The notes below the pieces were generated by a model. It had not been told where the DNA came from, did no database searches, and saw nothing but the letters and a program-made list of their open reading frames with translations. A program made the position numbers and the translations under genes. From Halichondria panicea (Eukaryota > Porifera > Demospongiae > Suberitida > Halichondriidae), in NCBI RefSeq assembly GCF_963675165.1, contig NC_087387.1:1787501-1851500 (forward strand): 64,000 nucleotides of DNA, written 5' to 3'. Below are positions 17,901 to 61,109 of this stretch, piece by piece; positions within the stretch are counted from its first letter, which is position 1; each line of letters opens with the position of its first letter.

Positions 17901-19702
17901 TGCTATAATTATAGTTGTAGTTATAGTACCAGCATTCGACTGCCTATACTCTTTTAGTAGAAAAAACAAAACAAAAAGAAGTTTAGTCTCCTCAGTGCAG
18001 TAACAGTCTTTCTCATGCACTCACTCAATAATTTCGCTCAGATATGTTCTCTCTCAGCACAGTTAACTTCCCCTCCAAAATAAAATTTCCTTTAAAATTA
18101 ATTACCCAAATTAATTTTCCTCCTAAAAAATAAATAATAATAATAAATTTAAAATTTAACAGTTAGTGCACATCATATAATTATACTATCCCATTACATT
18201 ATACAGACTCAAGCTCTGAAGATGACTCCACTGATGATGTATCAACAAACGAAGACACTGGTATAAATGCATGCAGCATGTACTGTCTTGTAAGCCTTCT
18301 GTGACACTCACTATGTTTGCATGGGCAATACCGTATATACTCCACCCGAGATTATGCCCACCCAAAATTTATATAGCCAAAAACGATAGTTAATTTACTC
18401 GAATTTACGCCCACCGATTGAGCTCAAATTGGTGTAATTAATATAGTTATACGTATATACAATAAATGCAAAATAATGAAAGTCACAATATAATTATCAA
18501 AGGTAATGCATGGGTAAAGTATAACTAGGCCCAAAGAAAATTAACTCACTGTATACATGTTGTCATCGTCATCAAAAAAAGTTGCTCTTTGTCTCTCTAT
18601 ACAATAGGAGTAATTGGATAAGCAGATGTGCATAGCTATTTTTAGAGCCTATAATTATTACCGCTCTTATACACAACAAACGGCTTCTCTAACATGCTTG
18701 ACAAACTGCATAAACTGATCAATCTCACCGAAACTGATTGGTGTATTTTTGAAAAATTAGTCTTTCACTTAAAAGCGAGGGTGGGTATAATCTTGCTATA
18801 GAATATCCATATACATACTTATATAACTATAGACAATTCTGATGAGGAGCAGTCATCAAATGAAGATCAGACGGACACAGATTTCCTTGGTGGGTTTGAG
18901 TTTACGCAACATCTTTGCCTATAATTACGTACGTTTCATACATGCATTTTTACTAATATATACAGATAGTCCTCAACCATATTCAATGAAGAATCGACAA
19001 GCTCTGATCATCAACATTGTCAAGCACCCAACGAAAGAGAGACACGGCTCAGACAAAGACAAAGATGCACTGAAAGAAACGTTGAACATACTAGGATACA
19101 CTGTGCATGTCAAACCAGACCTAAAACGCGACGAGATAATTCCAAAAGTTGTCAAATATGCAAAAAAAGACAAACACTGCGACAGTTTTATCTGCTGCAT
19201 CTTGGCACACGGTAGTCAGGGTGTGGTATGTGGGTCCGATGGAAAGAAAGTCGAGATAAAAGAAATTTCAAAGGCACTTAACATGGTAAAACAGTTAAAA
19301 GGGAAGCCGAAAATCTTTTTCTTCCAAGCTTGTCAGGGAAGTGATGCTCCAAAAGCTGAACAAGCCGAAGCTGATGATGGGTCCAATGTACATGTAAGTG
19401 GTGAAGTAGAGATAGACGTAACCATTCCGAAACTGCCTCGAGATAGTGATTTCTTCTACGGCTGTGCATCGTCTTTTGAAACTATCTCCATGCGAGTGCC
19501 TAGCGAAGGATCACTGTACATACAGGCCCTTTGCCGAGTCTTGAAGGAAAAGTACAAAACAGAGGATCTTCTAACCATGGTCACCACGGTCCACTATTTA
19601 GTTGCTAAGGATGAACGATCAGTTAGAAAAGGTGGAAAAGATGTCTTCTACCAACAGCAACCACAGTTAGTGTCTACTTTAAGGAAGCTAGTGCACTTTT
19701 AG
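10190..19702 (+). CDS. Caspase A: death-domain, basic/acidic linker, caspase catalytic domain
   Basis: Exons: 10190..10460, 10590..10634, 14159..14203, 14258..14290, 14366..14422, 15082..15126, 18207..18260, 18833..18889, 18966..19702. All internal exons are multiples of 3 bounded by phase-1 introns; using all gives 447 residues, but cassettes may be skipped. Exon 1 codes a death-domain-like helical fold (WREIGRALGLKDFDIEGINS; TWGKLIDVL). The linker alternates lysine/arginine-rich exons (SKPKRSKRKG, NLS-like) with acidic serine exons (DSSSEDDSTDD). The last exon holds the caspase domain: catalytic His in CCILAHGSQG (codon 19208) and catalytic Cys in FQACQGSD (codon 19331), then RDSDFFYG and a C-terminal QQPQLVSTLR. 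Caspases are cysteine proteases cutting after aspartate. The DD prodomain suggests recruitment to a death-fold complex (inference). The last exon is very secure, linker choice less so. Confidence 0.82.
11388..11875. repeat. Decayed copy of the GCCTCGGTG dispersed repeat in caspase A intron
   Basis: Left end CTCAGCGAGGTATATATACCG and right end GTGGGTGCTAATACCTCGGCGGAGGC resemble the ends of the 8800-9358 repeat, with diverged interior. Immediately upstream (11205-11300) are poly-G/poly-C stretches. No coding sequence was recognised here. Confidence 0.45.
12142..12180 (+). pseudogene. Truncated copy of the caspase A acidic cassette exon
   Basis: ATGACTCCACTGATGATGTA...AAATACACTG is identical to the 3' two thirds of the 14366-14422 exon. 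It lacks the 5' part and acceptor, and a GTATAAGT follows where the donor should be. It shows that this intron has undergone repeated local duplication. Confidence 0.7.
12408..12476. repeat. Near-perfect 69-bp hairpin in caspase A intron
   Basis: TGACCACAGCCATGGTATAT...GTTATAC is followed by a six-base loop and then its complement, with about one mismatch per arm. In caspase A pre-mRNA it would fold into a stable hairpin. It may be a solo foldback element or a small-RNA precursor. Confidence 0.8.
13086..13478. mobile_element. MITE with TACCGTATATGCTCGATCAG ends
   Basis: A 393-bp block with terminal inverted repeats TACCGTATATGCTCGATCAG and CTGATCAAGCATATACGGTA. Internal direct repeats of a motif like GCCGCTCTCAAATAGTAGCC occur four times. 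No ORF of known type was found. The intervening stretch 12480-13085 contains nothing recognised. Confidence 0.75.
13553..13683. repeat. 131-bp foldback element
   Basis: AGTTAAACTATGGCCTCTCG and GGTATATTTG...TTACACGC are mirrored by GCGTGTAAATCAAATATACC and GGCCATTGTTTAACT. The arms are about 50 bp with a short CG-containing loop. Confidence 0.75.
15384..15461. mobile_element. TAGCCTCGA-family MITE with 9-bp target duplication
   Basis: A 78-bp element starts TAGCCTCGATCCCAGGCCG and ends CCTGGGACCGAGGCTA. Perfect 9-bp flanking repeats AGGTAGTGC lie at 15375-15383 and 15462-15470. Confidence 0.85.
15470..17950 (-). mobile_element. Decayed CR1/L2-like non-LTR retrotransposon in caspase A intron
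   Basis: On the minus strand an open frame at 17879-17169 (236 codons) has a PHD-like zinc finger (CNLCDG...CEGDCAQFYHRYC) and an ORF1-type region FNIVVYGIPE...MRLGSYKELSKRSRPTLVRL. Next, at about 17070-16800, come reverse transcriptase motifs QFGFLKNRSSLSQMLSFL and IVYLDFRKAFDSVPH. After an interruption, RT tail motifs follow at about 16258-15500 (WKLTLNHDKC, RDLGIVLT). Stops and frameshifts make it dead. The active-site YADD region is missing where a dispersed repeat (16270-16791) has inserted. It is antisense to caspase A. Confidence 0.8.
16270..16791. repeat. GCCTCGGTG dispersed repeat, copy nested in the LINE
   Basis: Starts ATGCCTCGGTGCGCATGCGC and ends GAGGCATCAGCACCCGCGGTGC, in the opposite orientation to the 8800-9358 copy. 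It separates two parts of the LINE reverse transcriptase, so it inserted after the LINE. Confidence 0.75.
18329..18805. repeat. Inverted-repeat element between caspase A exons
   Basis: The left arm ACCGTATATACTCCACCCGA and GATTATGCCCACCC is mirrored near 18775-18800 by GGGTGGGTATAATCTTGC. A related sequence with GAGATTACGCCCAC is present at 62207-62285. It sits between the acidic exons at 18207 and 18833. Confidence 0.55.
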
Positions 19703-23730: not shown

Positions 23731-26730
23731 TTATAGTTGTTTCTTCAACTCCCTGTTAACAGCAGCAAATCCTGTCTGATTCTTGTCTACCAGTACATGT
23801 ATTCGCTCAAGTTGCTCAGATTGTCCATCTAATAAAACACCTTGATGAATTCCAGTATCCATCATTCGTGACAGCTCTTCGCTTATTTTATCCAAGTTAG
23901 CATCGACTGCGCTTGGGTATTGGTGAAGTTGTGTTGTGATGTGTTGTGGCCTGTCCTTCGACTTTGGTTTTGATTTAGGCAGTGGGGTGTTGGGTTGACG
24001 CTTACTGGATTTCCTACCGGATTCCTTTTTGTGTCGCGAGCCAAAAGATGATTTGTTCGTTTCTCTTCCAGGTGTAAGATCAAGTTGTGGCCTGTCCTTA
24101 GAGCTTAGTGGTTTCGATGGGGTTTGGGACGATTGACCCTTACCGGATTTCCTACAGGATTCCTTTCTGTGTTGCGAGCCTTTGATCGTTTCTATATTAT
24201 GTTTTCCACTCGTAAGATCATCCCTCATCTGTTCATGATCTCGTTCGATATGGTTTAGCTTTTCAGTTTGCCGCTCAAGTTCTGCTAAAGTTGAAACACC
24301 CATTGCATTTGTCGCAACAAGAGCATTCACCGATCTTGCTGAAGATTTCTCCATCCGTTGAATCGCCGATTGTTCACGAAATTTCATCTCTTCAGACTTT
24401 TCTTCCTCTTTGTCAAATGGATTTGATCGAGATCTGGTTGGTGGAATCTCATTACTCTTCACTTTTGCTTTGCTAAATGGTTTACTTCTGTGGCTAGCAG
24501 ATTGCTTAGATGCAGAAGATTTCTCAATCGGCAGTACTTCTTTGATTTCCGAACCAAACCATCCACTGAAAAATCCTCGAGACTTTGGCGGTAGTTTGGG
24601 CTGTGTGTCGGTATCAGGTAGTGTTTTGACCGGTGAGAGTCGAATACTTGCTTTCAGATCAGTTTGTATCTGTTCTTGTAGCCTTTCAGTTTTGTCAATG
24701 GAGGCACCTTGATGCAGAAGAGCTTGATTTGTTAACACATCAATCCGATGAGCATCAGTTAAGGTGGCTAAAGACTTCTCACTGGAGATTTCAATTCTGT
24801 TAACTGCTGCTTTGGTTCGAACTTGTTCGGCTTGTGATGTAAACGTATCAGGTGCAGTTTCTTCATTATCTTTAGCGATTCCAGAATCCTGGTGCATCTT
24901 GGCAGTTTGCTTCAATCCTTCTAAGTCAAAATTTGGTAGGGTGGTCTGAGTAGAATTTGGTGGGAGGTCTATATCGAGCTTTGGCAGTGTGGCCTCGTTA
25001 GTAGGAGCTACAGTTTCTGGTTGTTTCTTGCTAGCATCGAGCTTTTGCTGTGTGGAATCGTTGACCTTAGTCACAGTTATCTCCTCAAATTCCTCGAGTT
25101 TGACTTCCTCATCTTTGTTACCGCCAATTAAGGTTTTTTTCATCTTTGTGAAGAACGACTCTTTGTCTGCACCAGTTTTTGATGACTTCTCAATTGGTTG
25201 TTTTTCGGCTGCTTTGTTCTGCTGTCGGCTGTTTTTTTTTTTGGAAGAGTCACCGGACTGCTGTTCAAGTTGAATGTGCAGTCTTTTAATTTGCTCTTCT
25301 TTCTCTCTCATCTTTTCAAGGTGAGTAGTATATTGAGCATTCTGTTCTTTGATATGTTGCTCTTGTTCATTGATTTTCCCCACTTGAGTAGCCAATTGTT
25401 CATTCTGCTCAGTGATTTTCTCACAATGTGAATCGATTTGCTTTTGCTGCTCAGTGACAGTTAGCTGGTGCTGTTCATTTTCTTGCTTCAGTTTTTCTTC
25501 TACGCTCTCGAGCTCATTTTCAGTTCCTTGGAGCTTCTCTAGAAGTTCTTGTTGAGTTTCAATGAGATTGTTGTATTGTAGAATTTCCTTTCCCAAAACA
25601 TGTTCTTTTGCTTCGAGTTGGTCTTTCATTGCTATAATTTTCCGTTCACTCTCTACCAGAAGCTGCTCAGTGCGTGTCAATTTCTCCTTTACCTCGTCCT
25701 TTACATGCACATAATCAAGTAGTTGTAAATCGAAGTTGTCGGTGCCAACGGCCTTCTCTTCTGTTTCACACTCAGTAGTACCCACACACTTGTCTTCCGT
25801 GATTCTCTGTGGTTTCTCTTCGGTTGTTTTGCTCTCGGTGTACAGTGTCGTTTCGGTGAGCGACGCCAGCCTGTCACATAGGTCACTAGCCAGTGGTCGA
25901 TCGGCCTCCTCATCTTTGAGGCAATCCAAAGCAATAGGTAAGAGAGAATGATCATGTGGGATCAGAGAAATGTGGTTGTTTCTACGCTCCAATTCTTTCA
26001 CAAGGGCTTTGATCTTTTCATTGCCGACTATTCTGTCTTCGAGCTTTCCCTGTGGTTTCGGAAACTTTTGCGTCAGAATTTGAATGAGGAGAACTGCAAA
26101 TGAAAAAATATCTCCGCTCTTTTTGAAATCGTCTCCAAAAGCTTCTGGTGGCATGTACACTTCTGTACCAGGAACAGCTGTGTTTGACACACGTGACATT
26201 TTGGTATTCAGAAATTTGGCCATTCCAAAGTCTGATAGCTTAGCATGTCGAGACTTTCCAGCCAAAAGAATGTTGTTGCTTGAAAGATCTCTGTGAACAA
26301 TTTCATTGACATGGAGAAACGAGAGGGCTCTCATGATATCGAGGCAGATGTTGACTTGGACGTGATAGGCAATTGGTTGAGTGGACCCTTCGAGGTATTG
26401 TGTCAGACTTTCGTCCATTAGTTCCATCAGCAATATGGGGAGGCGCGTTGATGGATCTGTGTACATCCCAAGATACTGAATGATATTTGGGTGACGTATC
26501 TCTTGCAAAAATTTAAACTCAGCTTCAAACCTTCGAATTGGAATTCGATGCTCATTTCTACAAGGTGTGGCTTGAGAAGGTTGTACTAGAATCCTATAGA
26601 TCCTCTTTGCGGCACACAACAGTTTGTCACAGATGGCCATGTGCACAGATCCATATGCACCCGCTCCGATTTCGTCTTCAAAAATTGTTATTTCCTTGAA
26701 TCCAACTTCTTCGACAGCTTCAGTTTCCAT
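23731..26730 (-). CDS. Intronless protein kinase with coiled coil and three SNAP-25-like SNARE motifs
   Basis: One open frame of 999 codons. Residues 12-290 form a complete kinase domain: glycine loop GAGAYGSV (22-29), AAKRI with K42, HRDLSSNN with D148, DFG at 167-169, PPE at 194-196, and DIFSFAVLL. The loop style resembles TKL/plant-like serine-threonine kinases. Residues 340-490 are a strongly charged, Q/E-rich coiled coil. Residues 500-999 are low complexity with three similar helical segments at about 645-695, 785-845 and 945-997. The last reads EELSRMMDTGIHQGVLLDGQ then SEQLERI, and the second VSTLAELERQTEKLNHIE. Both look like Qb/Qc SNARE motifs of the SNAP-25 family, and a glutamine sits at the expected zero layer (Q674, Q821, Q970). 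FFSGWFG (720-726) resembles a linker patch. No membrane segment was found. Kinase assignment is firm; SNARE homology is by eye. Confidence 0.88.
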   Translation of the reverse strand: METEAVEEVGFKEITIFEDEIGAGAYGSVHMAICDKLLCAAKRIYRILVQPSQATPCRNEHRIPIRRFEAEFKFLQEIRHPNIIQYLGMYTDPSTRLPILLMELMDESLTQYLEGSTQPIAYHVQVNICLDIMRALSFLHVNEIVHRDLSSNNILLAGKSRHAKLSDFGMAKFLNTKMSRVSNTAVPGTEVYMPPEAFGDDFKKSGDIFSFAVLLIQILTQKFPKPQGKLEDRIVGNEKIKALVKELERRNNHISLIPHDHSLLPIALDCLKDEEADRPLASDLCDRLASLTETTLYTESKTTEEKPQRITEDKCVGTTECETEEKAVGTDNFDLQLLDYVHVKDEVKEKLTRTEQLLVESERKIIAMKDQLEAKEHVLGKEILQYNNLIETQQELLEKLQGTENELESVEEKLKQENEQHQLTVTEQQKQIDSHCEKITEQNEQLATQVGKINEQEQHIKEQNAQYTTHLEKMREKEEQIKRLHIQLEQQSGDSSKKKNSRQQNKAAEKQPIEKSSKTGADKESFFTKMKKTLIGGNKDEEVKLEEFEEITVTKVNDSTQQKLDASKKQPETVAPTNEATLPKLDIDLPPNSTQTTLPNFDLEGLKQTAKMHQDSGIAKDNEETAPDTFTSQAEQVRTKAAVNRIEISSEKSLATLTDAHRIDVLTNQALLHQGASIDKTERLQEQIQTDLKASIRLSPVKTLPDTDTQPKLPPKSRGFFSGWFGSEIKEVLPIEKSSASKQSASHRSKPFSKAKVKSNEIPPTRSRSNPFDKEEEKSEEMKFREQSAIQRMEKSSARSVNALVATNAMGVSTLAELERQTEKLNHIERDHEQMRDDLTSGKHNIETIKGSQHRKESCRKSGKGQSSQTPSKPLSSKDRPQLDLTPGRETNKSSFGSRHKKESGRKSSKRQPNTPLPKSKPKSKDRPQHITTQLHQYPSAVDANLDKISEELSRMMDTGIHQGVLLDGQSEQLERIHVLVDKNQTGFAAVNRELKKQL

Positions 26731-40135: not shown

Positions 40136-41345
40136 TAGTCTCATGAATCAGCCGCCGTTCTTTTGGAACCACCGTCTGAGCACTCTTGTCATCGTTTTAT
40201 GTGCCAAGACGGAATTCCGTCTTGACCAATCAAATTGCAGAAGTCCAGTCAGGTGATGAACTTGGAGGCAGCAAAGAACTGCACTTTGCTCAACGCATTT
40301 GGATAATCATTATACGCATGCATTACGCATGGTAAACACTTCATACATAGAAGCTGCTACGAAGCATAAGCAAGGCAAGCAGGGGTCCTTGGGCACAGAT
40401 TTAGCACCACAGCAAAACACAAGTAGAGAGAGATGCCTTCGCTTGGCGATTTGTATAACAATTAGGAATCGCCACAACGAAATTCGTGACATCACAGCCT
40501 CACTGCTCACAGAAGTATGCCATAATGTCGCTACAGAGCCACCCCTCCAGCCCCTCACTGGAGAGCTCTTCTCTGCCAGATCAGTAAACACAAGCAACCA
40601 TGCTCGCCCCGATATTCGTGCAAGAGGCTTCTGGAACAACCACCAAGATGCATTTTTTGATGTAAGGGTATTCTACCCTAACGCACCTAGTAACCGTTCC
40701 GGAGATGCCTACAGGAGACACGAGCAAGCAAAAAAGAGGGAATACGGACAAAGGGTCAGAGAAATCAAGCGGGGAGTCTTCACACCCTTAGTCCTCTCAA
40801 CCTGGGGAGGAATGGGCAAAGAAGCAGCAACTTTTTACAAGAGGCTCGCTGATCTGTTATCCTCAAAAAGACAAAATCCGTACCCAGCAGTAATGGGATG
40901 GCTCAGATGCAGGCTATCCTTTGCATCGATCCGCTCTGCAATAATGTGCATTAGAGGAAGCCGTTCATCGCTGCACAGACCTGTCTACATGGACAATATC
41001 AACCTTGTATCTCAGGAGGGGCGAGCCCCCCCCCTGAATACATAATTCATCTATGAACTACTTATATTCGCTTTGTTTTTATTTTTTACTGCTACATAAT
41101 TACTATCACTAAACTACCTCCTTCTTTTGTACAATGTAATTTTTTCTTAGCCCCGAGATGGAGAGCTTTCACGCCAAAAAAAAAAAAAAAAAACAATTAG
41201 GAAATATGTGTGGGCGTAAGATCACGATTTAATTACATTCCATTGGTTTTGTGAGCAATCAACATTCCATTTTGAAATGACTTCATGACAATTAAGAGTG
41301 CTCAGACGGTGGTTCCAAAAGAACGGCGGCTGATTCATGAGACTA
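40136..41345. mobile_element. 1,210-bp DNA transposon with perfect 52-bp TIRs
   Basis: It starts TAGTCTCATGAATCAGCCGC and ends with the exact complement. The TIRs are identical over 52 bp (40136-40187 and 41294-41345). The flanking 9-bp repeat is TTCCAGGTG at 40127-40135 and 41346-41354. It carries one ORF (40299-41045) and an A-run (41176-41193) after it. Perfect TIRs and target duplication suggest a recent insertion. The first copy is intact; the copy after the gap is cut by Ns. Confidence 0.9.
40299..41045 (+). CDS. Transposon-borne restriction-endonuclease-like protein, 248 aa
   Basis: The C-terminal 190 residues match a domain common in invertebrate mobile-element proteins: RHNEIRDITASLLTEVCHNV (58-77), LQPLTGE, RPDIRARGFW with D105, FFDVRVFYPNAPSNR with D121, YGQRVREIKRGVFTPLVLST, GGMGKEAATFYKRL, and LRCRLSFASIRSAIMCIRGS. 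The PD...FFDVRV pattern is reminiscent of PD-(D/E)XK nucleases such as the endonuclease that follows reverse transcriptase in some non-LTR elements. I cannot confirm the fold. The first 45 residues lack similarity and the true start may be later. No reverse transcriptase or DDE transposase is present in the element. Confidence 0.6.
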   Translation: MDNHYTHALRMVNTSYIEAATKHKQGKQGSLGTDLAPQQNTSRERCLRLAICITIRNRHNEIRDITASLLTEVCHNVATEPPLQPLTGELFSARSVNTSNHARPDIRARGFWNNHQDAFFDVRVFYPNAPSNRSGDAYRRHEQAKKREYGQRVREIKRGVFTPLVLSTWGGMGKEAATFYKRLADLLSSKRQNPYPAVMGWLRCRLSFASIRSAIMCIRGSRSSLHRPVYMDNINLVSQEGRAPPLNT

Positions 41346-41734
41346 TTCCAGGTGATGGAGGAGGGGTCAGTGTCCAGTTGTAAGAATTGATCAATCTTAG
41401 CACTGCTCAGATCACCCGGCTGTGAAAATATAACATAACAGCAAATAAAGTTCATATGTCATGCATAAAAATTATTATCAGAGTAGTAGTACGTTTCCAA
41501 CGAATGCATGTAAAATGAACCATGCACACATTCTAAATAAAGAAGCGAGATGATGCAACAGACCATGCAAAGACGAGGATCAATTCCAAACAAGTTACGT
41601 ACCATAATTATATAACCTGTTGATATACGAAAGGTGAGATTATTAAACTGTAAATGTGTCAATAATTATAAACTAGCTAGAAAGTTTTAGGTGTGTCCTA
41701 TATACACTAGCTCTTAAATTGTTGCTCATTCATA

Positions 41735-42889
41735 CTAGTTGAATTTTACTTGACCTCTTAGGGTAGAAACAAGTTGTGGCTGTTGTCGGTAAGGCCCTTG
41801 ATCAAGGTTATGAACTTTTTCTGCCTCTTGGTAATGAACCCTAGTTACCATGGTCACAAGATCTTCATCTTTGTAATACGATTGGAGAACATTGCAAAGT
41901 TCTTGTATGTATGACGAGCCTAACAGATTATTTCTTGTTGCTCTGGTTTCGAAAGAAGTGGCAAATCCGTAGAAAAAGTCGCTGTCACGAGGAAGAGATG
42001 GCGTGGCTGTGTCAGTAGTTTCAACCTGAAGAGAAGAATCCAGAGGTGGTACGTCTTCCAAGCAATCAGTAATTGTTGATGATGGTGGTAAGTCACTTCC
42101 TTGGCAAGCTTGAATGAAAAAGATTTTGGGCTTTTGATGCAAATACTTTTGGCAAAGATTTTTGGAATTGACTAAAGCTCTCGCAATATCTGCTATTTTG
42201 ACTGTACTTCCATCCAGTCCTTGTATTGCACCTTCTTTTCCATGTGCCAGGATGCAGCAAATAAAGCTATCAGCATTTTCATCTTTGTTGGCATGTTCAA
42301 CAACTGTTGTTTTTATATCATCTGCTGTTGATAAATCATCTACAGACTCGACGGCATATCCCAACGTCTTGAGAGCCTTTTGCAATGCCTCCTTGTCCCT
42401 GTCGGAACCATATCTAGGATTATTTGGATATTTGACATTATTGATGATCAGGGCTCTTCCGTGTGGTTGGATGTTCATCGTATACTGATAAGATTGTCCT
42501 TTAAGTTTCTTGGGGGAAGGACCACCTATGAAACAAAACAGGTATTTGACAAATGCAATCAAACTGCAAAAGTTAAGCTCTATGAAAATATACTCACCAC
42601 TATCATCTCCTTCGATTTTCTTTGAAGGACAATATTTTTCTTGGATTTTCCTTGCTACCTTCCTTTCCTCTGCCTTAAACAAAGCGCTAGCAATATCTTC
42701 CCAATCAAATTCAATATTCCGAAGAGCAAAGATCAACATGTCCATTAGGGCATCTTTGTTTTCTTTGCCTTTTTGGTTTTCAAGAATTCCAGTTCGAACA
42801 CCCAGCTCCACACCAATTCGCCTCCAAATAAAAGATACTGAACTAAGCTCATCCAAGAGTTTGCTCAAATCTTCTTCAGTTAATGGCAT
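41735..42889 (-). CDS. Caspase B: death-fold prodomain plus caspase domain
   Basis: Two exons, 42889..42598 and 42525..41735, joined in phase 1 (GT donor at 42597, AG acceptor at 42526), 360 residues. The unspliced frame is also open but would insert a hydrophobic stretch. Residues 1-88 form a death-domain-like helical bundle (FIWRRIGVELGVRTGILENQ; FDWEDIASAL). A short lysine linker (PSPKKLKG) replaces the multi-exon linker of caspases A and C. The catalytic domain is at about 110-360: His192 in CCILAHGKEG, Cys238 in FIQACQGSD, then LPRDSDFFYGFATSFETRAT and a QQPQLVSTLRGQVKFN end. Interdomain aspartates could serve as processing sites (inferred). It is divergent to caspase C. The copy at 51435-52589 appears identical. 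Confidence 0.88.
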   Translation of the reverse strand: MPLTEEDLSKLLDELSSVSFIWRRIGVELGVRTGILENQKGKENKDALMDMLIFALRNIEFDWEDIASALFKAEERKVARKIQEKYCPSKKIEGDDSGEYIFIELNFCSLIAFVKYLFCFIGGPSPKKLKGQSYQYTMNIQPHGRALIINNVKYPNNPRYGSDRDKEALQKALKTLGYAVESVDDLSTADDIKTTVVEHANKDENADSFICCILAHGKEGAIQGLDGSTVKIADIARALVNSKNLCQKYLHQKPKIFFIQACQGSDLPPSSTITDCLEDVPPLDSSLQVETTDTATPSLPRDSDFFYGFATSFETRATRNNLLGSSYIQELCNVLQSYYKDEDLVTMVTRVHYQEAEKVHNLDQGPYRQQPQLVSTLRGQVKFN

Positions 42890-43227
42890 CTGTAAAAGTT
42901 AGTATCGTGCACAAGCAGTATATAATTATAATAGAACAACTAAGAAGCTATATACATGCTGTGACAAGTGTACACGTTTGTTTACATGTTAGAAAAACCA
43001 TTAGCCATATAATTAAGGTCAGATAATTGGCCTTGTAACTTACCTTATTGTATAGCTTGACTGTACACGTATATATATAGATCTATAAGTCACAGGCACT
43101 TTCAATTGTACTACATGTCTTTCAAATGGGTGGGCTATCACAAAACAGAGTGTGCATGCCTCCCACATTCCAATATCAAAACAATCTACCAGCCCCCCAC
43201 AAAAAAGTCATGATCCACCCATACTAC

Positions 43228-43441
43228 TACCGTATAGAGGGTAATTTTCGTGGGGCAAAATATTCGTGGTTTTTGTGGTTGAAGGTCTGACTACGAATAT
43301 TTACCCACGAATGAAGCAACCTTGCTTACCTTTACCTGCAGAGCAAGCTCCAACCACGAAATTATTACCCACGAAATGTCTCAATAATTTATTGCTGAAC
43401 CACGAATATTTTGTCCCCCGAAAATTACCCGCTATATGGTA
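43228..43441. mobile_element. MITE with TACCGTATAG ends, copy 3
   Basis: TACCGTATAGAGGGTAATTT ... AAAATTACCCGCTATATGGTA, same family as 28893 and 29181. Duplicated at 52928-53141 with the large repeat. Confidence 0.8.
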
Positions 43442-43844
43442 CTTGCTTCATGTGATTCAGAATGTATGTAACAAGGTCAGTTAGAGTTGCACCAAGGCTT
43501 GGTTGCACAGTGTAAAAGGGCCCAAACAATTTTGTTGGCATCTATACACAAATGCAAAACTTAAAGGACCCTTTCCTTATGATCACTTTCTTTTTTTAAT
43601 GTCATAAATTATATCTACGTACTTGTACCATGATGTGCTCTGACACTATAAGGATGAAACTCTCAGGATACTCTATAGGGTACAAATGCCCTGTACCCTC
43701 GGGGGTGTTACTGTACATATGTACAACCTATGGTACATGACTGTATAGTCAGCTTAAACACCTCTGTTTTAGAAAACTACCGTAACAAAAATTGTGGGAA
43801 GCACAAAAATGTGAAGGTGTGCAAGCACACCCACACAATACATA

Positions 43845-44074
43845 TACCGTATAGCGCGAAATTTTCGAGGCACTTATATTTCGTGGATTGGCCTCTAAAA
43901 GTATTTTCGTTGCACAATGTTCGCGGAATGACTGCTTTCCGGAAGCCACGCCTTTAAATCTTGCACGTTATAGCAGGTAAAGAACGATTTTCGTGGACTT
44001 AATTTTCGTGTAGGATTGCTAACCCACGAAATCCACGAAAATTAAGCCCCTCGAAAATTTCGCGCTATACGGTA
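43845..44074. mobile_element. MITE with TACCGTATAGCGCG ends, copy 4
   Basis: TACCGTATAGCGCGAAATTT at the left, AAATTTCGCGCTATACGGTA at the right; the interior again is ATTTTCGTGG-rich. Duplicated at 53545-53774. Confidence 0.8.
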
Positions 44075-44289
44075 TACACAGTGCGTGCACGGCAGAGATC
44101 AAAGAGAGTTGACTATACTACTCACTTCTAATCAAGTGTTTCATAGTACAAGCCATGCATGCATGGATATCTACGTGTGTATTGGTATATCCTCGTGCAG
44201 GTATTCCAAATACATAGAACTGCCCTCGGGTACAAATCCAATACATCCTAGATACAACTATTACATGTACAATACGCCCGCCCACTCAC

Positions 44290-45620
44290 CACTGTATGTG
44301 TATTATATTCTTCCATACCAATGTCGGCTTCAAACCCCGCCTTTGTGATCAAAAATCTCCTCTCCCACCAGCCTTGTCTGTCAGGATAGACAAGTTCCAT
44401 GGGCGATGTTGGCAAACGGTCCAGCGTACAAACCCAGGTGAGCCCTCTGACGAATAAAAAGGTGATCAGTTTTGTTTATCAGCACATTTCTACAGTAAGG
44501 AATTTACCACACAGAATTTGTATCACATGTGAACACAGACCACAAAACACATGCAATCTCCATGCACTATAATTATTGGGACATGCACTCATGCATGCAT
44601 GTCACATAATTATTATAGGTGAGTTAAAAATATCTCACCTAATGTTTGCATGAGTGGTTTGATGGCATCCTTCATTATAACAGCCAGTGCTCTTGTCACT
44701 CTTATAATTATCATTTGCTGTTTATAGGATCACCCTAGCTGGTTGCTATACTGCATGGTCACCACAATTCGTCCAATTTACTCCTTTATATCTGCCAGGT
44801 CGATCAGTAGTGAGAGCGAATATTGCCATCAGCTCACTGCATGACTATACTGAGATATCAACCTGGGTTTGAAGGTAAATATAGGGTGAATGATAAGGTT
44901 TGGAGCATCACCAAGTTAAAGAACACGAATCCATACTAATTATGCACAGTCAACTGTTTTCCCAGAGCCTTTTTAGCATAATGGTCCCATTTCATGCATT
45001 GTAGCCTCCATGGTTGAAGGGTTGACTTGTGCACCTGGAAGACAGGCTTACCGCTATTATATGCTGAATCATAGATGGTTGAATGAAGGGTGGATGCCCT
45101 ATAAATTAAGTGGTACCTGAGGTATCCTGTATTGATAATGGTGGGTACTGAAAGACAAACTGTGGGTTGTATATTTGTGGATAAGATATGAACGTATTAT
45201 GAACCATGTATAGACAGACACCTCTCTGCTTTGACCTTTCTCAATCTTTCCCTGACTGTTTGTGATGTTAAAAATACTGTTCGTGCATGGCGGTGGTGGA
45301 GGGGTCAATATCTAGTCGGGAGAACTGATCAATCTCAGCACTGCTCAGATCTCCCGCGGGTTCCTGCATGCATGTGAGAAATTAATCACACTATAGACAC
45401 TTTGACTGAACCGAGACCATGCATGCATGAACGATAAATTAGTATCACAAAGTGTCATCAGATTTGTATAATTATATGGATAAAACATGTACTTATACTT
45501 TCACTCAAGGTTTGCATGCATGCGGTTTGGTTTGATGGTGTCTTTCATTAGAGATTCCACCGAACTCTAATGCTTCTGAGGATACTCTGTATCCTGTATT
45601 GACAATGGTAAACCGTGGGT
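44290..45620 (-). pseudogene. Degraded, intron-containing C1-THF synthase (MTHFD1-like) fragments
   Basis: Reading down the minus strand: 45620-45500 decays from VSSEALEFGG into a frame-shifted LMKDTIKPN; 45364-45221 has the degraded [10 protein letters not shown] exon; 44697-44639 reads ALAVIMKDAIKPLMQTL and ends at a GT donor; 44440-44290 has AGPFANIAHG then, in another frame, ITKAGFEADIGMEE. These are successive landmarks of the formyl-THF synthetase domain, so an unprocessed genomic copy decayed here, possibly twice (LMKD...IKP occurs in two places). Frameshifts show it is dead. Duplicated at 53990-55320. Confidence 0.7.
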
Positions 45621-45838
45621 TGTGTAGTAAGGCTTGTTGGTTTACCACTCCATGTGATGATCCAGTCACCTCTAGCTCTGCTGTAACCTTTCCATAAGTC
45701 TTGCCTTGACCAACGTCAATCAACTAGTCACAAGACGGCATGCCACAGTAAAGAAGTCCTTCAAACAAAGTGACCTAATCTCAAGTAATAGTTTGCAGTG
45801 TAATAATTCATTATTGTTCAGAGAATCGACGAGTATAT

Positions 45839-48008
45839 ATGGATCTAGAGCTTGATCTAGATTCACTACTAACAGAGCTGCTAGAAGCTCAAATGCAATG
45901 GAAGTATATAGGAGGGGCACTAGGTCTTGAAGCATACGAAATTGCAGCAATAGATGAAAAGTGTAAAGATGCAAAAGATGCACTTAGAGAAATGCTGACT
46001 ATCGTTCTCCAAAGGAGATCTGTAACCAGGAAACTACTTACAGAAGTTTTAAGCAAATCTTCGATAAAACTCACTAAACTAGCAGCAAAAGGTGAGTATT
46101 ATATATCTCATGCCCCATTTGTCTGCATGTTCTGAATTTGGTATACCTTGTTATACAAAGGCAACTATATATAATTATGCATGCATTTTTCACGTTACAT
46201 TGTTAAACAGCTCATTCATAACTATAATGTTAACTCAAATAATACTTCCTATAATTTATACTGCATATATATTGCATGACTAAAACATAAAAACACAATA
46301 TTGAGTGCTTGGTTCTACTGCTACTGCATGTATGTGCACCTGCAGTTTCAAATCCAAGGAGTCAAGACGATTCCATTGACAGTGAAACACCAGGTAAACA
46401 CACCACCATGCTGCATGTACTTCTATTAATACTGTGTCTATATATAATGTATGTGCGTGCACCTGCAGTTTCAAATCCAAAGAGTCAAGACGATTCCATT
46501 GACAGTGAAACACCAGGTAAACACACCACCATGCAGTACTTCTACATTAATACTGTGTCTTCTATGTAATAAATTTATTATAGGCCGGTATATACATAAA
46601 CAAAATTTGATTGTGGCTATAGCTATAGATGATACTTTCTATAAGAAAGAAGTTAACTCACAGCATAATTAATACATAATTATATAGAGTGCATGGTATA
46701 CATAGGTAGAGCAAAACACACACCAGCATAAAATTATACCACATAACTTGCATACACTATAATAAAATTAATAGAACGAAGGAATAACGGTATAATTATG
46801 CTGTATACAGCCATGTATATATCGCTTTATTCCCTATATAGCTCGAAAGAAGAGAAAGCAAGATGATAGTCCAGACAGTGGGCAGATCAAAAGAATTAAA
46901 AGCGGTGAATATTTTAACCATCTTGAAATAGCATGTGCATATACCGTATTACTAGAATATTTTGCAGGTGAAAAACTTTTGCGAATGAGCCAAATCAGCA
47001 GAAAATTTGACCCTTACATCTATAATAATTGCATTCTGGCAAGGATCGTGTGTATTTACTAGTAATAATAATAGGCTTTGCGGATTTTATTGTTGCGAAT
47101 TGATCGACCATCGCAAAGTTCGCAAATGTTTGATACTCGCAAAACATTCTATGGTATACAGTTTGCATGCATGTTTACATGCATGCTGTCAGTTTCCCGT
47201 TTTGTTTTGTATAGGTGATGTATTAAAAACGCCAGGCCGTCTTGAACCACCTTATAAGTACACAATGACAAACCAACTACATGGAAATGCCCTAATCATC
47301 AACAACGTCAATTATAAAACTCCATTAACGGTTAGAAAAGGTTCTAACGAGGACAAGAAGGAGTTGAAAAAGGCTCTCGAGACGTTGGGATATGCCGTAG
47401 AGTCTGTAGATGATTTACCAACAGCAGATGATATAAAAACAACAGTTGTTGAGCATGCCAACAAAAATTCAAATCCCGATAGCTTTATTTGCTGCATTTT
47501 GGCACACGGAGAAGAAGGTGCAATAGTAGGACTGGATGGAAGTACGATCAAAATAGCTGAAATTTCAAGAGCTCTAGTCGAACCCCCAAATCCTTGTCAA
47601 AAGTATTTGCACCAAAAGCCTAAAATCTTTTTTATTCAAGCTTGCCAAGGTAGAGACACACCATCAGAACTTGATTGCACAAAAGACGTACCAACTGATC
47701 CTTCTCTTCCGGTTGAAAATCTCGACACGGGTATACCATCTCTTCCTCGTGACAGTGACTTTTTCTACGGATTTGCCTCTTCGTTTGAAACCGCAGCAAC
47801 ACGAAACCCAGATCACGGTGCATCGTATATACAAACCCTTTGCAACGTTCTTGAAACACATTACAAAGATGAAGATCTTGTGACGATGGTAACCAGGGTT
47901 CATTTCAAAGAGGCAGAAAATCCCCATAATATCGGGAATACAAAGCCCTTATACCGACAACAGCCACAACTTGTTTCTACTCTAAGAGGTCAAGTAAAGT
48001 TCAACTAG
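45839..48008 (+). CDS. Caspase C: death domain, two identical-length cassette exons, NLS-like linker, caspase domain
   Basis: Exons 45839..46091, 46346..46393, 46469..46516, 46842..46904, 47215..48008; all introns phase 1; 401 residues. Exon 1 codes a death-domain-like fold (MQWKYIGGALGLEAYEIAAI). Exons 2 and 3 are tandem duplicates (VSNPRSQDDSIDSETP and VSNPKSQDDSIDSETP). Exon 4 reads ARKKRKQDDSPDSGQIKRIK, a basic NLS-like cluster. The catalytic domain has His235 in CCILAHGEEG, Cys281 in FIQACQGRD, LPRDSDFFYGFASSFETAAT and QQPQLVSTLRGQVKFN. It is much closer to caspase B than to A in the catalytic part, but shares its linker layout with A. Its copy at 55539-57708 appears identical. Confidence 0.88.
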
Positions 48009-48599
48009 TAATTGAACAGCAAGAGTGTAATTATAAGATACATGCAACTGGAACTTTCTAGCTATAATATATAATAGTTTACTAATAGGCTATGCATGCA
48101 TGCATGCAATTACTTTTGTAGTTTGATTAGATATACTACTCCTTTTGTATCACAATTAATGCATTAATCCAGGTCTATAGGTATGATTGATTGTTTATGC
48201 TTTACTTTCTATTAATAAAGTGAGGTTCATTTAAACGAAACAAACCCTAGCTCCACTGACAACTCTGCAACTGTTATAGGACACACGTGCAAGCAAAATT
48301 TATCTTTTGCGCATGCGCAGACGCCCACGTTTAATTCGGTTATCTGGCCTGCTTCTGGAACTCTATGTATGCTGGAACCAAGGTGTCCGGATAATCTTAT
48401 TTTCTGCCCTTACTATAATTATGATTATTATGAAATTATCAGAGAAACCCATTAATTTGATCTACATTTGTATTGTCTGACAGTGTTAGCATGCATGCAG
48501 GTGCTGATGCCACGGTGGAGGCACCAAAACTATATACAACATGAAGTTACTATATATAGATCTACAGCCTAAACTTACATTGGTGCAAAAAGTGAGACC

Positions 48600-48818
48600 A
48601 CGATCGATTCCAAAGTTCAAAGACGGGCTCACCATACATACAAGTCCTTTGCAAAGTGCTTAAAGAACGGCACAAAGACGAAGATCTTGTAACCATGGTG
48701 ACCAGAGTTCACTATCTAGTGGCAGGAAAGGAGTACAAAATTATGAGAAGCGGAATACCTGTGCCCTAAGCAACAGCCGCAACTGATTTCCACCTTAGAA
48801 ATAGAGACAATTGAATAG
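48600..48818 (+). pseudogene. Caspase small-subunit fragment downstream of caspase C
   Basis: Reads GSPYIQVLCKVLKERHKDED then LVTMVTRVHYLVAGKEYKIM with a stop (TAA) soon after, then out-of-frame QQPQLISTL. No large subunit is present. It parallels the fragment at 20139-20460 behind caspase A. Second copy at 58300-58518. Confidence 0.8.
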
Positions 48819-48934
48819 TTATAGTATACGCCTAAATCAGGTATAGACACATGTATGTAAGGTATATATTATGTAGGTAGTTTGCATTATGAACTTACAT
48901 TTCGTTATTGACTTGCATGCTGATTTATTAACGA

Positions 48935-49155
48935 GTGTTGCAAGCTGCGCTGTGCTAATGCCTCTCACCGTTGTTTTGCTTTAATAGATCGAAGAGGTGA
49001 AGAGGTATAATTATACGTTATTATCGTTGATTGCAATTGTTGACAGAATTGAATTCCACACAGTCATTATAGGAGAGGAGCTGAATGGAAACAGAGCCTA
49101 TCTAATGGCTTGAAGAGTCTTCAACGATCTAAAGCAACTGCATGTTATTTAATAT
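48935..49155. repeat. Second copy of the conserved 220-bp downstream segment
   Basis: GTTGCAAGCTGCGCTGTGCT through GCATGTTATTTAA, matching 21644-21875. It again follows a caspase and its broken fragment. Third (duplicated) copy at 58635-58855. Confidence 0.75.
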
Positions 49156-49376
49156 GGCGGGCCTGTAGCCAAACAGTGGGAGCAAAGCAGAGTAAGAGAG
49201 AATTTTAAGCACAGACAGTAGTATAAGGATACAACAAATAGCTATAAAGCTAGAGTGAAGTGTGTCCTATAATATAAAAATTAAAACATTAACACATACG
49301 TTTTATTAGCTACAACATGTCAACTAAGTAAGAATACAAAAATATGTCTTAAATGAACATAATATACTAGCACAGT

Positions 49377-49988
49377 CTACTGAAGCAAATTCCTTGTGGC
49401 TAACAAGCTTATTCCATACTGCATGTGTGATTGCATGAGGGAAAAAAAAGGAAATTTGTACAAGGATGTTCTACATTTGTAGGGGACCAGAGAGAAACAG
49501 TTAACTGTTCTGCTGCTGAACATCAGATTTCTTTTAGTTGTTGGATTGTTTGGGAAGTTAGTCAGATTGTGCAGTATTTTTAACAGGCGCCTCAACTGTA
49601 GAGTAGGAAGCCTGGTCAAGGTAAGCAATTCTTCACTCCTCAAATTCCATTTCTTCAAACAGACTCTCATAGCGAATCTCTGAACTTTTTTTATAGATTG
49701 TTGATTTCCGACTTGTGAAATAGGTTCCACACAGAGGAAGTATATTCCAGATGTGGTCTCACAAAGGATGTATACAACTTTAATAGTGTTGTTGGAGAAG
49801 AATTGCCTGAGAACCGGCGATGTAGGAGTCCTATCAACTTCCTTGTTTTATTGCAGATGGTATTGATGAGTGTGCCAGCTCAACTCAGCCGATATGGTAA
49901 TTCCTAGTTAAAAACCTGCTGCAGTATACATAACCATTTAAAAGTAGAGTTGGGGCCTTCCATGAGCGCGAAGTTTTCTTAGAAACAG
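49377..49988 (-). mobile_element. 3' part of a CR1-like LINE, cut by the assembly gap
   Basis: The minus-strand frame 49730-49377 reads KKVQRFAMRVCLKKWNLRSE and LTRLPTLQLRRLLKILHNLT, the usual tail after reverse transcriptase in CR1/Jockey-type elements. It continues into the gap; the full context is seen at 59077-61060. Confidence 0.7.
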
Positions 49989-50188
49989 NNNNNNNNNNNN
50001 NNNNNNNNNNNNNNNNNNNNNNNNNNNNNNNNNNNNNNNNNNNNNNNNNNNNNNNNNNNNNNNNNNNNNNNNNNNNNNNNNNNNNNNNNNNNNNNNNNNN
50101 NNNNNNNNNNNNNNNNNNNNNNNNNNNNNNNNNNNNNNNNNNNNNNNNNNNNNNNNNNNNNNNNNNNNNNNNNNNNNNNNNNNNNNNN
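49989..50188. other. Assembly gap (200 Ns)
   Basis: Exactly 200 N. It is flanked by sequence shared with the other side (see 50189-59688). A round gap length is normally a scaffolding placeholder. Confidence 0.99.
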
Positions 50189-50745
50189 ACATCACAGCCT
50201 CACTGCTCACAGAAGTATGCCATAATGTCGCTACAGAGCCACCCCTCCAGCCCCTCACTGGAGAGCTCTTCTCTGCCAGATCAGTAAACACAAGCAACCA
50301 TGCTCGCCCCGATATTCGTGCAAGAGGCTTCTGGAACAACCACCAAGATGCATTTTTTGATGTAAGGGTATTCTACCCTAACGCACCTAGTAACCGTTCC
50401 GGAGATGCCTACAGGAGACACGAGCAAGCAAAAAAGAGGGAATACGGACAAAGGGTCAGAGAAATCAAGCGGGGAGTCTTCACACCCTTAGTCCTCTCAA
50501 CCTGGGGAGGAATGGGCAAAGAAGCAGCAACTTTTTACAAGAGGCTCGCTGATCTGTTATCCTCAAAAAGACAAAATCCGTACCCAGCAGTAATGGGATG
50601 GCTCAGATGCAGGCTATCCTTTGCATCGATCCGCTCTGCAATAATGTGCATTAGAGGAAGCCGTTCATCGCTGCACAGACCTGTCTACATGGACAATATC
50701 AACCTTGTATCTCAGGAGGGGCGAGCCCCCCCCCTGAATACATAA
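50189..50745 (+). CDS. Copy of transposon endonuclease-like ORF, 5' end lost in the gap
   Basis: Same sequence as 40489-41045; the frame opens into the Ns so the start is missing. The remainder of the element, with its right TIR, extends to 51045, and the C1-THF synthase half-exon follows (51046-51125). Probably an assembly duplicate. Confidence 0.7.
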
Positions 50746-51434
50746 TTCATCTATGAACTACTTATATTCGCTTTGTTTTTATTTTTTACTGCTACATAAT
50801 TACTATCACTAAACTACCTCCTTCTTTTGTACAATGTAATTTTTTCTTAGCCCCGAGATGGAGAGCTTTCACGCCAAAAAAAAAAAAAAAAAACAATTAG
50901 GAAATATGTGTGGGCGTAAGATCACGATTTAATTACATTCCATTGGTTTTGTGAGCAATCAACATTCCATTTTGAAATGACTTCATGACAATTAAGAGTG
51001 CTCAGACGGTGGTTCCAAAAGAACGGCGGCTGATTCATGAGACTATTCCAGGTGATGGAGGAGGGGTCAGTGTCCAGTTGTAAGAATTGATCAATCTTAG
51101 CACTGCTCAGATCACCCGGCTGTGAAAATATAACATAACAGCAAATAAAGTTCATATGTCATGCATAAAAATTATTATCAGAGTAGTAGTACGTTTCCAA
51201 CGAATGCATGTAAAATGAACCATGCACACATTCTAAATAAAGAAGCGAGATGATGCAACAGACCATGCAAAGACGAGGATCAATTCCAAACAAGTTACGT
51301 ACCATAATTATATAACCTGTTGATATACGAAAGGTGAGATTATTAAACTGTAAATGTGTCAATAATTATAAACTAGCTAGAAAGTTTTAGGTGTGTCCTA
51401 TATACACTAGCTCTTAAATTGTTGCTCATTCATA

Positions 51435-52589
51435 CTAGTTGAATTTTACTTGACCTCTTAGGGTAGAAACAAGTTGTGGCTGTTGTCGGTAAGGCCCTTG
51501 ATCAAGGTTATGAACTTTTTCTGCCTCTTGGTAATGAACCCTAGTTACCATGGTCACAAGATCTTCATCTTTGTAATACGATTGGAGAACATTGCAAAGT
51601 TCTTGTATGTATGACGAGCCTAACAGATTATTTCTTGTTGCTCTGGTTTCGAAAGAAGTGGCAAATCCGTAGAAAAAGTCGCTGTCACGAGGAAGAGATG
51701 GCGTGGCTGTGTCAGTAGTTTCAACCTGAAGAGAAGAATCCAGAGGTGGTACGTCTTCCAAGCAATCAGTAATTGTTGATGATGGTGGTAAGTCACTTCC
51801 TTGGCAAGCTTGAATGAAAAAGATTTTGGGCTTTTGATGCAAATACTTTTGGCAAAGATTTTTGGAATTGACTAAAGCTCTCGCAATATCTGCTATTTTG
51901 ACTGTACTTCCATCCAGTCCTTGTATTGCACCTTCTTTTCCATGTGCCAGGATGCAGCAAATAAAGCTATCAGCATTTTCATCTTTGTTGGCATGTTCAA
52001 CAACTGTTGTTTTTATATCATCTGCTGTTGATAAATCATCTACAGACTCGACGGCATATCCCAACGTCTTGAGAGCCTTTTGCAATGCCTCCTTGTCCCT
52101 GTCGGAACCATATCTAGGATTATTTGGATATTTGACATTATTGATGATCAGGGCTCTTCCGTGTGGTTGGATGTTCATCGTATACTGATAAGATTGTCCT
52201 TTAAGTTTCTTGGGGGAAGGACCACCTATGAAACAAAACAGGTATTTGACAAATGCAATCAAACTGCAAAAGTTAAGCTCTATGAAAATATACTCACCAC
52301 TATCATCTCCTTCGATTTTCTTTGAAGGACAATATTTTTCTTGGATTTTCCTTGCTACCTTCCTTTCCTCTGCCTTAAACAAAGCGCTAGCAATATCTTC
52401 CCAATCAAATTCAATATTCCGAAGAGCAAAGATCAACATGTCCATTAGGGCATCTTTGTTTTCTTTGCCTTTTTGGTTTTCAAGAATTCCAGTTCGAACA
52501 CCCAGCTCCACACCAATTCGCCTCCAAATAAAAGATACTGAACTAAGCTCATCCAAGAGTTTGCTCAAATCTTCTTCAGTTAATGGCAT
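51435..52589 (-). CDS. Caspase B, second (probably artefactual) copy
   Basis: Exons 52589..52298 and 52225..51435 translate identically to 41735-42889, including the intron. It has the same death-fold prodomain, LAHGKEG and QACQGSD motifs. Not counted as a separate gene unless depth or long reads show two copies. Confidence 0.7.
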   Translation of the reverse strand: MPLTEEDLSKLLDELSSVSFIWRRIGVELGVRTGILENQKGKENKDALMDMLIFALRNIEFDWEDIASALFKAEERKVARKIQEKYCPSKKIEGDDSGEYIFIELNFCSLIAFVKYLFCFIGGPSPKKLKGQSYQYTMNIQPHGRALIINNVKYPNNPRYGSDRDKEALQKALKTLGYAVESVDDLSTADDIKTTVVEHANKDENADSFICCILAHGKEGAIQGLDGSTVKIADIARALVNSKNLCQKYLHQKPKIFFIQACQGSDLPPSSTITDCLEDVPPLDSSLQVETTDTATPSLPRDSDFFYGFATSFETRATRNNLLGSSYIQELCNVLQSYYKDEDLVTMVTRVHYQEAEKVHNLDQGPYRQQPQLVSTLRGQVKFN

Positions 52590-52927
52590 CTGTAAAAGTT
52601 AGTATCGTGCACAAGCAGTATATAATTATAATAGAACAACTAAGAAGCTATATACATGCTGTGACAAGTGTACACGTTTGTTTACATGTTAGAAAAACCA
52701 TTAGCCATATAATTAAGGTCAGATAATTGGCCTTGTAACTTACCTTATTGTATAGCTTGACTGTACACGTATATATATAGATCTATAAGTCACAGGCACT
52801 TTCAATTGTACTACATGTCTTTCAAATGGGTGGGCTATCACAAAACAGAGTGTGCATGCCTCCCACATTCCAATATCAAAACAATCTACCAGCCCCCCAC
52901 AAAAAAGTCATGATCCACCCATACTAC

Positions 52928-53141
52928 TACCGTATAGAGGGTAATTTTCGTGGGGCAAAATATTCGTGGTTTTTGTGGTTGAAGGTCTGACTACGAATAT
53001 TTACCCACGAATGAAGCAACCTTGCTTACCTTTACCTGCAGAGCAAGCTCCAACCACGAAATTATTACCCACGAAATGTCTCAATAATTTATTGCTGAAC
53101 CACGAATATTTTGTCCCCCGAAAATTACCCGCTATATGGTA
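52928..53141. mobile_element. Copy of MITE 43228-43441
   Basis: Same element at offset 9,700. A copy of the 43845-44074 MITE follows at 53545-53774. Confidence 0.75.
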
Positions 53142-53989
53142 CTTGCTTCATGTGATTCAGAATGTATGTAACAAGGTCAGTTAGAGTTGCACCAAGGCTT
53201 GGTTGCACAGTGTAAAAGGGCCCAAACAATTTTGTTGGCATCTATACACAAATGCAAAACTTAAAGGACCCTTTCCTTATGATCACTTTCTTTTTTTAAT
53301 GTCATAAATTATATCTACGTACTTGTACCATGATGTGCTCTGACACTATAAGGATGAAACTCTCAGGATACTCTATAGGGTACAAATGCCCTGTACCCTC
53401 GGGGGTGTTACTGTACATATGTACAACCTATGGTACATGACTGTATAGTCAGCTTAAACACCTCTGTTTTAGAAAACTACCGTAACAAAAATTGTGGGAA
53501 GCACAAAAATGTGAAGGTGTGCAAGCACACCCACACAATACATATACCGTATAGCGCGAAATTTTCGAGGCACTTATATTTCGTGGATTGGCCTCTAAAA
53601 GTATTTTCGTTGCACAATGTTCGCGGAATGACTGCTTTCCGGAAGCCACGCCTTTAAATCTTGCACGTTATAGCAGGTAAAGAACGATTTTCGTGGACTT
53701 AATTTTCGTGTAGGATTGCTAACCCACGAAATCCACGAAAATTAAGCCCCTCGAAAATTTCGCGCTATACGGTATACACAGTGCGTGCACGGCAGAGATC
53801 AAAGAGAGTTGACTATACTACTCACTTCTAATCAAGTGTTTCATAGTACAAGCCATGCATGCATGGATATCTACGTGTGTATTGGTATATCCTCGTGCAG
53901 GTATTCCAAATACATAGAACTGCCCTCGGGTACAAATCCAATACATCCTAGATACAACTATTACATGTACAATACGCCCGCCCACTCAC

Positions 53990-55320: not shown

Positions 55321-55538
55321 TGTGTAGTAAGGCTTGTTGGTTTACCACTCCATGTGATGATCCAGTCACCTCTAGCTCTGCTGTAACCTTTCCATAAGTC
55401 TTGCCTTGACCAACGTCAATCAACTAGTCACAAGACGGCATGCCACAGTAAAGAAGTCCTTCAAACAAAGTGACCTAATCTCAAGTAATAGTTTGCAGTG
55501 TAATAATTCATTATTGTTCAGAGAATCGACGAGTATAT

Positions 55539-57708: not shown

Positions 57709-58299
57709 TAATTGAACAGCAAGAGTGTAATTATAAGATACATGCAACTGGAACTTTCTAGCTATAATATATAATAGTTTACTAATAGGCTATGCATGCA
57801 TGCATGCAATTACTTTTGTAGTTTGATTAGATATACTACTCCTTTTGTATCACAATTAATGCATTAATCCAGGTCTATAGGTATGATTGATTGTTTATGC
57901 TTTACTTTCTATTAATAAAGTGAGGTTCATTTAAACGAAACAAACCCTAGCTCCACTGACAACTCTGCAACTGTTATAGGACACACGTGCAAGCAAAATT
58001 TATCTTTTGCGCATGCGCAGACGCCCACGTTTAATTCGGTTATCTGGCCTGCTTCTGGAACTCTATGTATGCTGGAACCAAGGTGTCCGGATAATCTTAT
58101 TTTCTGCCCTTACTATAATTATGATTATTATGAAATTATCAGAGAAACCCATTAATTTGATCTACATTTGTATTGTCTGACAGTGTTAGCATGCATGCAG
58201 GTGCTGATGCCACGGTGGAGGCACCAAAACTATATACAACATGAAGTTACTATATATAGATCTACAGCCTAAACTTACATTGGTGCAAAAAGTGAGACC

Positions 58300-58518
58300 A
58301 CGATCGATTCCAAAGTTCAAAGACGGGCTCACCATACATACAAGTCCTTTGCAAAGTGCTTAAAGAACGGCACAAAGACGAAGATCTTGTAACCATGGTG
58401 ACCAGAGTTCACTATCTAGTGGCAGGAAAGGAGTACAAAATTATGAGAAGCGGAATACCTGTGCCCTAAGCAACAGCCGCAACTGATTTCCACCTTAGAA
58501 ATAGAGACAATTGAATAG
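58300..58518 (+). pseudogene. Copy of the caspase small-subunit fragment
   Basis: Repeats 48600-48818 with the same premature stop; the conserved 220-bp segment follows at 58635-58855. Confidence 0.7.
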
Positions 58519-61060: not shown

Positions 61061-61109
61061 TTGTATTGCTGTACAAATGAAAGCTACATAACATAAAGCT
61101 AGTATTATA

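Follow-up and report, generated by a model that had tools for sequence, protein, structure and literature searches.

A single-exon sponge gene predicted to join a protein kinase to a SNAP-29-type SNARE tail

In a 64,000-nucleotide stretch of DNA from the sponge Halichondria panicea (hereafter the window) we identified one gene that is predicted to carry a protein kinase and a SNAP-29-type membrane-fusion protein in a single chain. The host genome holds two intact copies of this kinase–SNAP-29 fusion gene. Its reading frame is laid out as kinase, coiled coil, a first SNARE motif of Qb type (Qb'), an NPF motif, a second Qb motif (Qb) and a Qc motif. We found no description of a kinase–SNARE fusion in the literature searched, subscription papers being largely outside its scope.

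Structure of the fusion gene

The gene and its parts lie in the window as follows.

23731–26730, minus strand: whole single-exon open reading frame, 999 amino acids, open from ATG to stop
25876–26679, minus strand: protein kinase domain, residues 18–285 (Pfam PF00069, E 6.4e-39)
25252–25707, minus strand: coiled coil, residues about 342–493, following the kinase domain
24640–24807, minus strand: Qb', first SNARE motif, residues 642–697, zero-layer Q674; matched in the PDB and in the host's own SNAP-29
24550–24579, minus strand: RGFFSGWFGS, residues 718–727, read by eye
24412–24423, minus strand: NPFD, residues 770–773; NPF is shared with the second copy and the unfused SNAP-29
24181–24378, minus strand: Qb, second SNARE motif, residues 785–850, zero-layer Q821; matched in the host's own SNAP-29
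23734–23907, minus strand: Qc, third SNARE motif, residues 942–999, zero-layer Q970; matched in the host's own SNAP-29 and in the PDB

The preliminary description of this DNA had reported a complete kinase domain, a coiled coil, three C-terminal helices and glutamines Q674, Q821 and Q970, and our analysis agrees on each point. The frame occupies exactly 23731–26730, Pfam recovers the kinase domain, and the three glutamines are found at these positions. A single-sequence AlphaFold2 model predicts the later helices at residues 651–695, 774–857 and 938–998; because its confidence is low (mean pLDDT 59, pTM 0.23), the model is useful for helix positions only. When the sequence is read directly, the G loop, K42, HRDLSSNN and DFG are all present in the kinase domain, which keeps the G loop, Lys, HRD and DFG residues of active kinases and is predicted to be active. 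IRAK4 chains are its top matches among the best 60 of 2437 in the PDB (E 1.4e-22).

Evidence that the C-terminal segments are SNARE motifs

When residues 770–999 were compared with the PDB, 38 distinct sequences matched at E≤10: 37 belong to SNAP-25, SNAP-29 or SNAP-23, and one is a linked ribonuclease. The matches are collinear, the Qb part aligning to Qb and the Qc part to Qc. The best, a SNAP-25 entry, reaches E 3.2e-4 for both stretches combined and 0.17 and 2.1 for the stretches singly, so that the single motifs are weak alone and the significance comes from their combination. The Qc of SNAP-29 is matched at E 0.0034. Qb' alone, as a query of 106 amino acids, finds two sequences at E≤10, both of them SNAP-29 Qb (E 0.0077 and 0.01). 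As a control, the coiled coil of the fusion alone gave nine matches at E≤10, all generic coiled coils with no SNARE among them.

Comparison with the host's own unfused SNAP-29 gives scores of 89 for Qb', 150 for Qb and 110 for Qc. Shuffles that preserve the heptad pattern by keeping core and outer positions apart (2000 per motif) reach at most 52, 66 and 60, respectively, and none equals an observed score; against the Qb piece of SNAP-29 alone the shuffle maxima are 61 (Qb') and 68 (Qb). Among 38 related kinases no coiled coil scores above 59 against SNAP-29, and the fusion's own coiled coil scores 45. The preliminary description had allowed that generic coiled coils might explain the likeness; the shuffles, the relatives' coiled coils and the PDB control together rule this out. 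Cross scores are low, at 30 (Qb') and 41 (Qb) against SNAP-29 Qc and 42 for Qc against SNAP-29 Qb, and are reached by 217, 57 and 77 of the 2000 shuffles, respectively. By these scores Qb' and Qb resemble the Qb of SNAP-29 and not its Qc, and Qc shows the reverse. The three SNAP-25/29-like Qb/Qc motifs of the preliminary description are real, with their order refined to Qb, Qb, Qc: the first segment reads as a diverged second Qb and the third as a Qc. As judged from sequence, the chain has the order of a Qbc SNARE, with Qb followed by Qc.

The zero-layer glutamine is present in all six motifs of the two fusion copies; its conservation, on which the preliminary description had placed weight, holds for every motif of the second copy. 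Register tests based on the spacing of SNARE layers place hydrophobic residues at 8 of 15 layers in Qb and 11 of 15 in Qc, the best of seven registers in both copies. In the window copy Qb' has 6 of 15, and another of the seven registers gives 7; layer -3 of this motif is Asp, and its layers +6 to +8 are polar. In Qb, His occupies layer +3 and Gly layer +6.

No Pfam SNARE model scored above its cut-off on the fusion, whether the whole protein or pieces of it were searched. Sec20 reaches 16.6 bits on Qb against a cut-off of 27, and a phage lysis model does as well (16.9). The unfused SNAP-29 itself passes V-SNARE_C by only 0.5 bit (27.6 versus 27.1). The SNARE-profile support to which the preliminary description had looked is therefore missing from Pfam, where no model passes, whereas the comparisons with the PDB and with the host genome are significant and specific.

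SNAP-29 as the source of the tail

We searched the host genome in six frames with residues 770–999, Halichondria panicea being the sole eukaryotic genome searched. Besides the two fusion genes there is one significant match, an open reading frame on contig C8. The sites elsewhere in the genome to which we refer are the following.

G000:C8:5022820-5023503 (open reading frame at L016:3318-4079): unfused SNAP-29, matched here by the SNAP-29 query
G000:C15:2500-2808: SNAP-25-type Qb exon with a cysteine-rich linker
G000:C11:4364214-4367225: second fusion gene of the same layout, 2.55 Mb from the window copy

The unfused protein contains NPF, Qb, a linker beginning SPFGGIANYF, and Qc, and its PDB match to SNAP-29 Qb has E 1.9e-9. 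The Qb of the fusion is 43% identical to it (E 3.2e-10) and the Qc 36% (E 1.1e-6). As its zero-layer residue the Qc of the unfused protein carries Ser, not Gln.

Scored against SNAP-29 and against the host's SNAP-25-type Qb, the Qb-type motifs give 89 versus 52, 90 versus 59, 150 versus 74 and 166 versus 82; all four such motifs of the two copies thus appear nearer to SNAP-29. The host SNAP-25-type exon lacks a Qc, and for this motif the PDB gives 20.7 bits for the SNAP-29 Qc chain and up to 16 bits for Qc-only chains of SNAP-25. In the fusion, NPFD stands directly before Qb at residues 770–773. According to PMC6551745, NPF marks SNAP-29 alone within the SNAP-25 family, and SNAP-29 is without the cysteine-rich membrane anchor of its relatives. 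The linker of each fusion copy has one isolated Cys and no cluster. IKSPFG after Qb is kept in the second copy; at this place the window copy carries an additional 129 bases. The RGFFSGWFGS string that follows Qb' is possibly a relic of the SNAP-29 linker (SPFGGIANYF). An origin from SNAP-25 or SNAP-23 is unsupported by the Qb scores, the NPF motif and the linker. The joining of a kinase to motifs of the SNAP-25 family, as first described, is upheld with its source named more exactly: by homology, the tail is that of the Qbc-SNARE SNAP-29.

A second copy and the constraint on its parts

The second fusion gene is 90% identical to the first over residues 1–851 and 83% over 890–999. The flanking DNA is partly common to the two copies, which points to duplication at the level of DNA. 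All 14 coding gaps between them are multiples of three, compared with 6 of the 21 flank gaps (two of the 21 lie at alignment ends). We rejected an assembly or read-through artefact because a distant copy repeats the fusion and every coding gap between the two stays in frame. Overall dS between the copies is 0.14, and the fusion predates the gene duplication.

By our own Nei-Gojobori script, dN/dS is lowest in the kinase (0.07) and higher in Qb (0.44), Qc (0.59) and Qb' (0.97). Taken together, Qb and Qc show no significant excess of silent change (p 0.13, with approximate site counts, 25/75). The in-frame gaps and the high SNARE values together argue that the whole frame is kept while the SNARE part changes rather freely.

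Kinase–coiled coil–Kelch relatives and the origin of the fusion

A search of the host genome with the fusion gave 47 matches (46 of 989 candidates scored), three of which represent the two fusions; the others are at least 44 other kinases, a lower bound, most of them on contig C16. The single-exon kinase–coiled coil–Kelch genes of this genome make up a large and clustered family (L016:5753-7963, contig C16), for which no description was found in the literature searched. From 40 regions and the neighbour of the unfused SNAP-29 we obtained 38 open reading frames of over 300 amino acids with the string HRDLS. Four regions were left out, namely L022 and L048 (a different letter in HRDLS), L036 (broken) and L054 (no HRD found); Kelch-like pieces can be seen by eye in L022, L036 and L054.

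A kinase domain is present in all 38 relatives and Kelch repeats in 30; the eight without Kelch are short frames of 331–626 amino acids. No SNARE family was detected in any of the 38 at E≤0.001. Their kinase domains are 47–52% identical to that of the fusion over about 300 residues, and in several the match extends into the coiled coil, to query residue 453–460. Sequence scans yielded no relative among 36 pattern matches in viral contigs and one among 54 in genome contigs, a kinase-domain match in a bacterial MAG. A tree built from the two fusions and the 38 relatives puts the fusion kinase on a long branch (0.83) that falls outside a main group of 35 members (support 100/100); it joins L019 with poor support (94/16), and the program gave a long-branch warning there.

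The simplest history would be that the Kelch tail of an old kinase–coiled coil–Kelch member was swapped for SNAP-29, that Qb either underwent duplication or was gained on two occasions (Qb' scores 89 against SNAP-29 Qb and 64 against the fusion's own Qb), and that the whole fusion gene was duplicated afterwards. We infer the tail swap from this pattern. A local fusion involving the kinase–Kelch gene beside the unfused SNAP-29 was considered and rejected: this neighbour is opposite in direction and is not among the closest kinases.

Other features of the window

A stretch of 9500 bases is repeated at 100% identity at 40489–49988 and 50189–59688, on either side of 200 N (49989–50188), and is perhaps an assembly duplication. 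The caspase open reading frames at 41735–42898/51435–52598 and 46989–48008/56689–57708 may therefore each be a single gene. Three different caspase-domain frames lie near the fusion kinase, at 18833–19702, 41735–42898 and 46989–48008 (Pfam Peptidase_C14, E 2e-47, 6.5e-41 and 4.9e-38). A further frame at 60731–61204 on the minus strand resembles, by eye, the endonuclease part of a LINE-type element.

Possible functions

Our preferred reading, which we put at about an even chance, is that the fusion arose by SNAP-29 replacing a Kelch tail, with Qb present twice, and that the product works as a SNARE-addressed kinase. The most likely role of the SNARE tail would be the targeting of the kinase to SNARE assemblies. 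In this view a syntaxin and an R-SNARE, with which SNAP-29 normally pairs, would be bound by the Qb and Qc helices, and an EHD-type protein by the NPF motif. The kinase would thereby be placed at SNAP-29 fusion sites, such as autophagosome–lysosome or recycling membranes, where it would phosphorylate SNAREs or their regulators. Partner binding, location, kinase activity and substrates are all putative in this scheme. Against it weigh the apparently weak selection on the SNARE motifs, the poor layers of Qb' in the window copy, the missing Pfam SNARE call and the weakness of the motifs taken singly in the PDB search. PMC6551745 and PMC13282721 give syntaxin 17 and VAMP8 as partners of SNAP-29, which also binds EHD1 via NPF; since SNAP-29 is free of the cysteine-rich anchor and binds these proteins, the tail could deliver the kinase to places where SNAP-29 acts. 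NEK3 phosphorylates SNAP-29 on Ser105 and alters its membrane association, as stated in PMC7978312, citing another paper. Because a separate kinase regulates SNAP-29, control of a SNAP-29-type tail by a built-in kinase is plausible by analogy. Held more tentatively is a specific form of this reading, in which a covalent SNARE-kinase would enter SNARE bundles via Qb and Qc, employ the extra Qb to lock the chain internally or to give it a second grip, and phosphorylate the fusion machinery at assembly sites.

It is unlikely, by our estimate, that the tail enters bundles without driving fusion and competes with SNAP-29, the kinase or the coiled coil serving as a switch. Such an inhibitory SNARE would accord with the spare Qb' motif, with the His and Gly in the Qb layers and with the weak C-terminal Qb' layers of the window copy, and PMC6551745 discusses a role of this kind for SNAP-29 itself. 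However, the zero-layer residues are all kept, and so are most layers of Qc. The missing membrane anchor says little here, because SNAP-29 also has none (PMC6551745).

We also consider it improbable that the motifs merely bundle the kinase, or mimic SNAP-29 as a bait that signals SNARE interference via the kinase. A loosely evolving SNARE part stands beside a strongly conserved kinase, in keeping with this alternative, and the kinase family is large and clustered. Large, clustered gene families are a pattern often seen in immune families, although an immune role is here inferred from the pattern only. SNAP-29 is targeted by viruses (PMC6551745) and reportedly by a bacterium (PMC12317070).

Very unlikely is a decaying fusion in which the SNARE tail is a relic and the kinase alone is in use: both copies maintain the frame through the final codon with 14 of 14 gaps in frame, the zero-layer Gln stands in six of six motifs, and the fusion is older than a duplication with an overall dS of 0.14, although SNARE dN/dS is not significantly below 1 and Qb' is poor at its C-terminal layers in the window copy. 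A chance resemblance of an ordinary coiled coil to SNARE motifs is scarcely credible, despite the lack of a Pfam SNARE model above cut-off, given that no shuffle reaches the observed score of any motif, that neither the relatives' coiled coils nor the fusion's own approach these scores, and that the PDB matches are specific.

In the systems known, a SNARE and its regulatory kinase are separate proteins. If the more tentative reading is true, a covalent SNARE-kinase would be a class of SNARE found nowhere described in the literature searched. The joined gene would show that evolution has experimented with membrane fusion under the direct control of an enzyme in the same chain, and could offer a handle for asking which substrates sit at SNAP-29 sites. 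It would also represent a tail swap, SNAP-29 for Kelch, inside a large clustered kinase family of a sponge.

Comparison with known systems

The fusion resembles SNAP-29 in its NPF motif, in the order of Qb then Qc, in a linker with no cysteine cluster and, in the second copy, in the SPFG at the start of this linker. It differs in adding a kinase and coiled coil in front as well as a second Qb, and in the zero-layer residue of Qc, which is Gln in the fusion and Ser in the unfused protein. With the SNAP-25/SNAP-23 type it has in common a Qb motif with a zero-layer Gln. In contrast, the cysteine-rich linker of that type is missing from the fusion, and its scores against the four Qb-type motifs of the two copies are lower, Qb alone being compared. 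With the kinase–Kelch family the fusion shares the kinase domain and the start of the coiled coil. However, its kinase is a long, deep branch, and where 30 of the 38 relatives carry Kelch repeats the fusion carries SNAP-29 instead.
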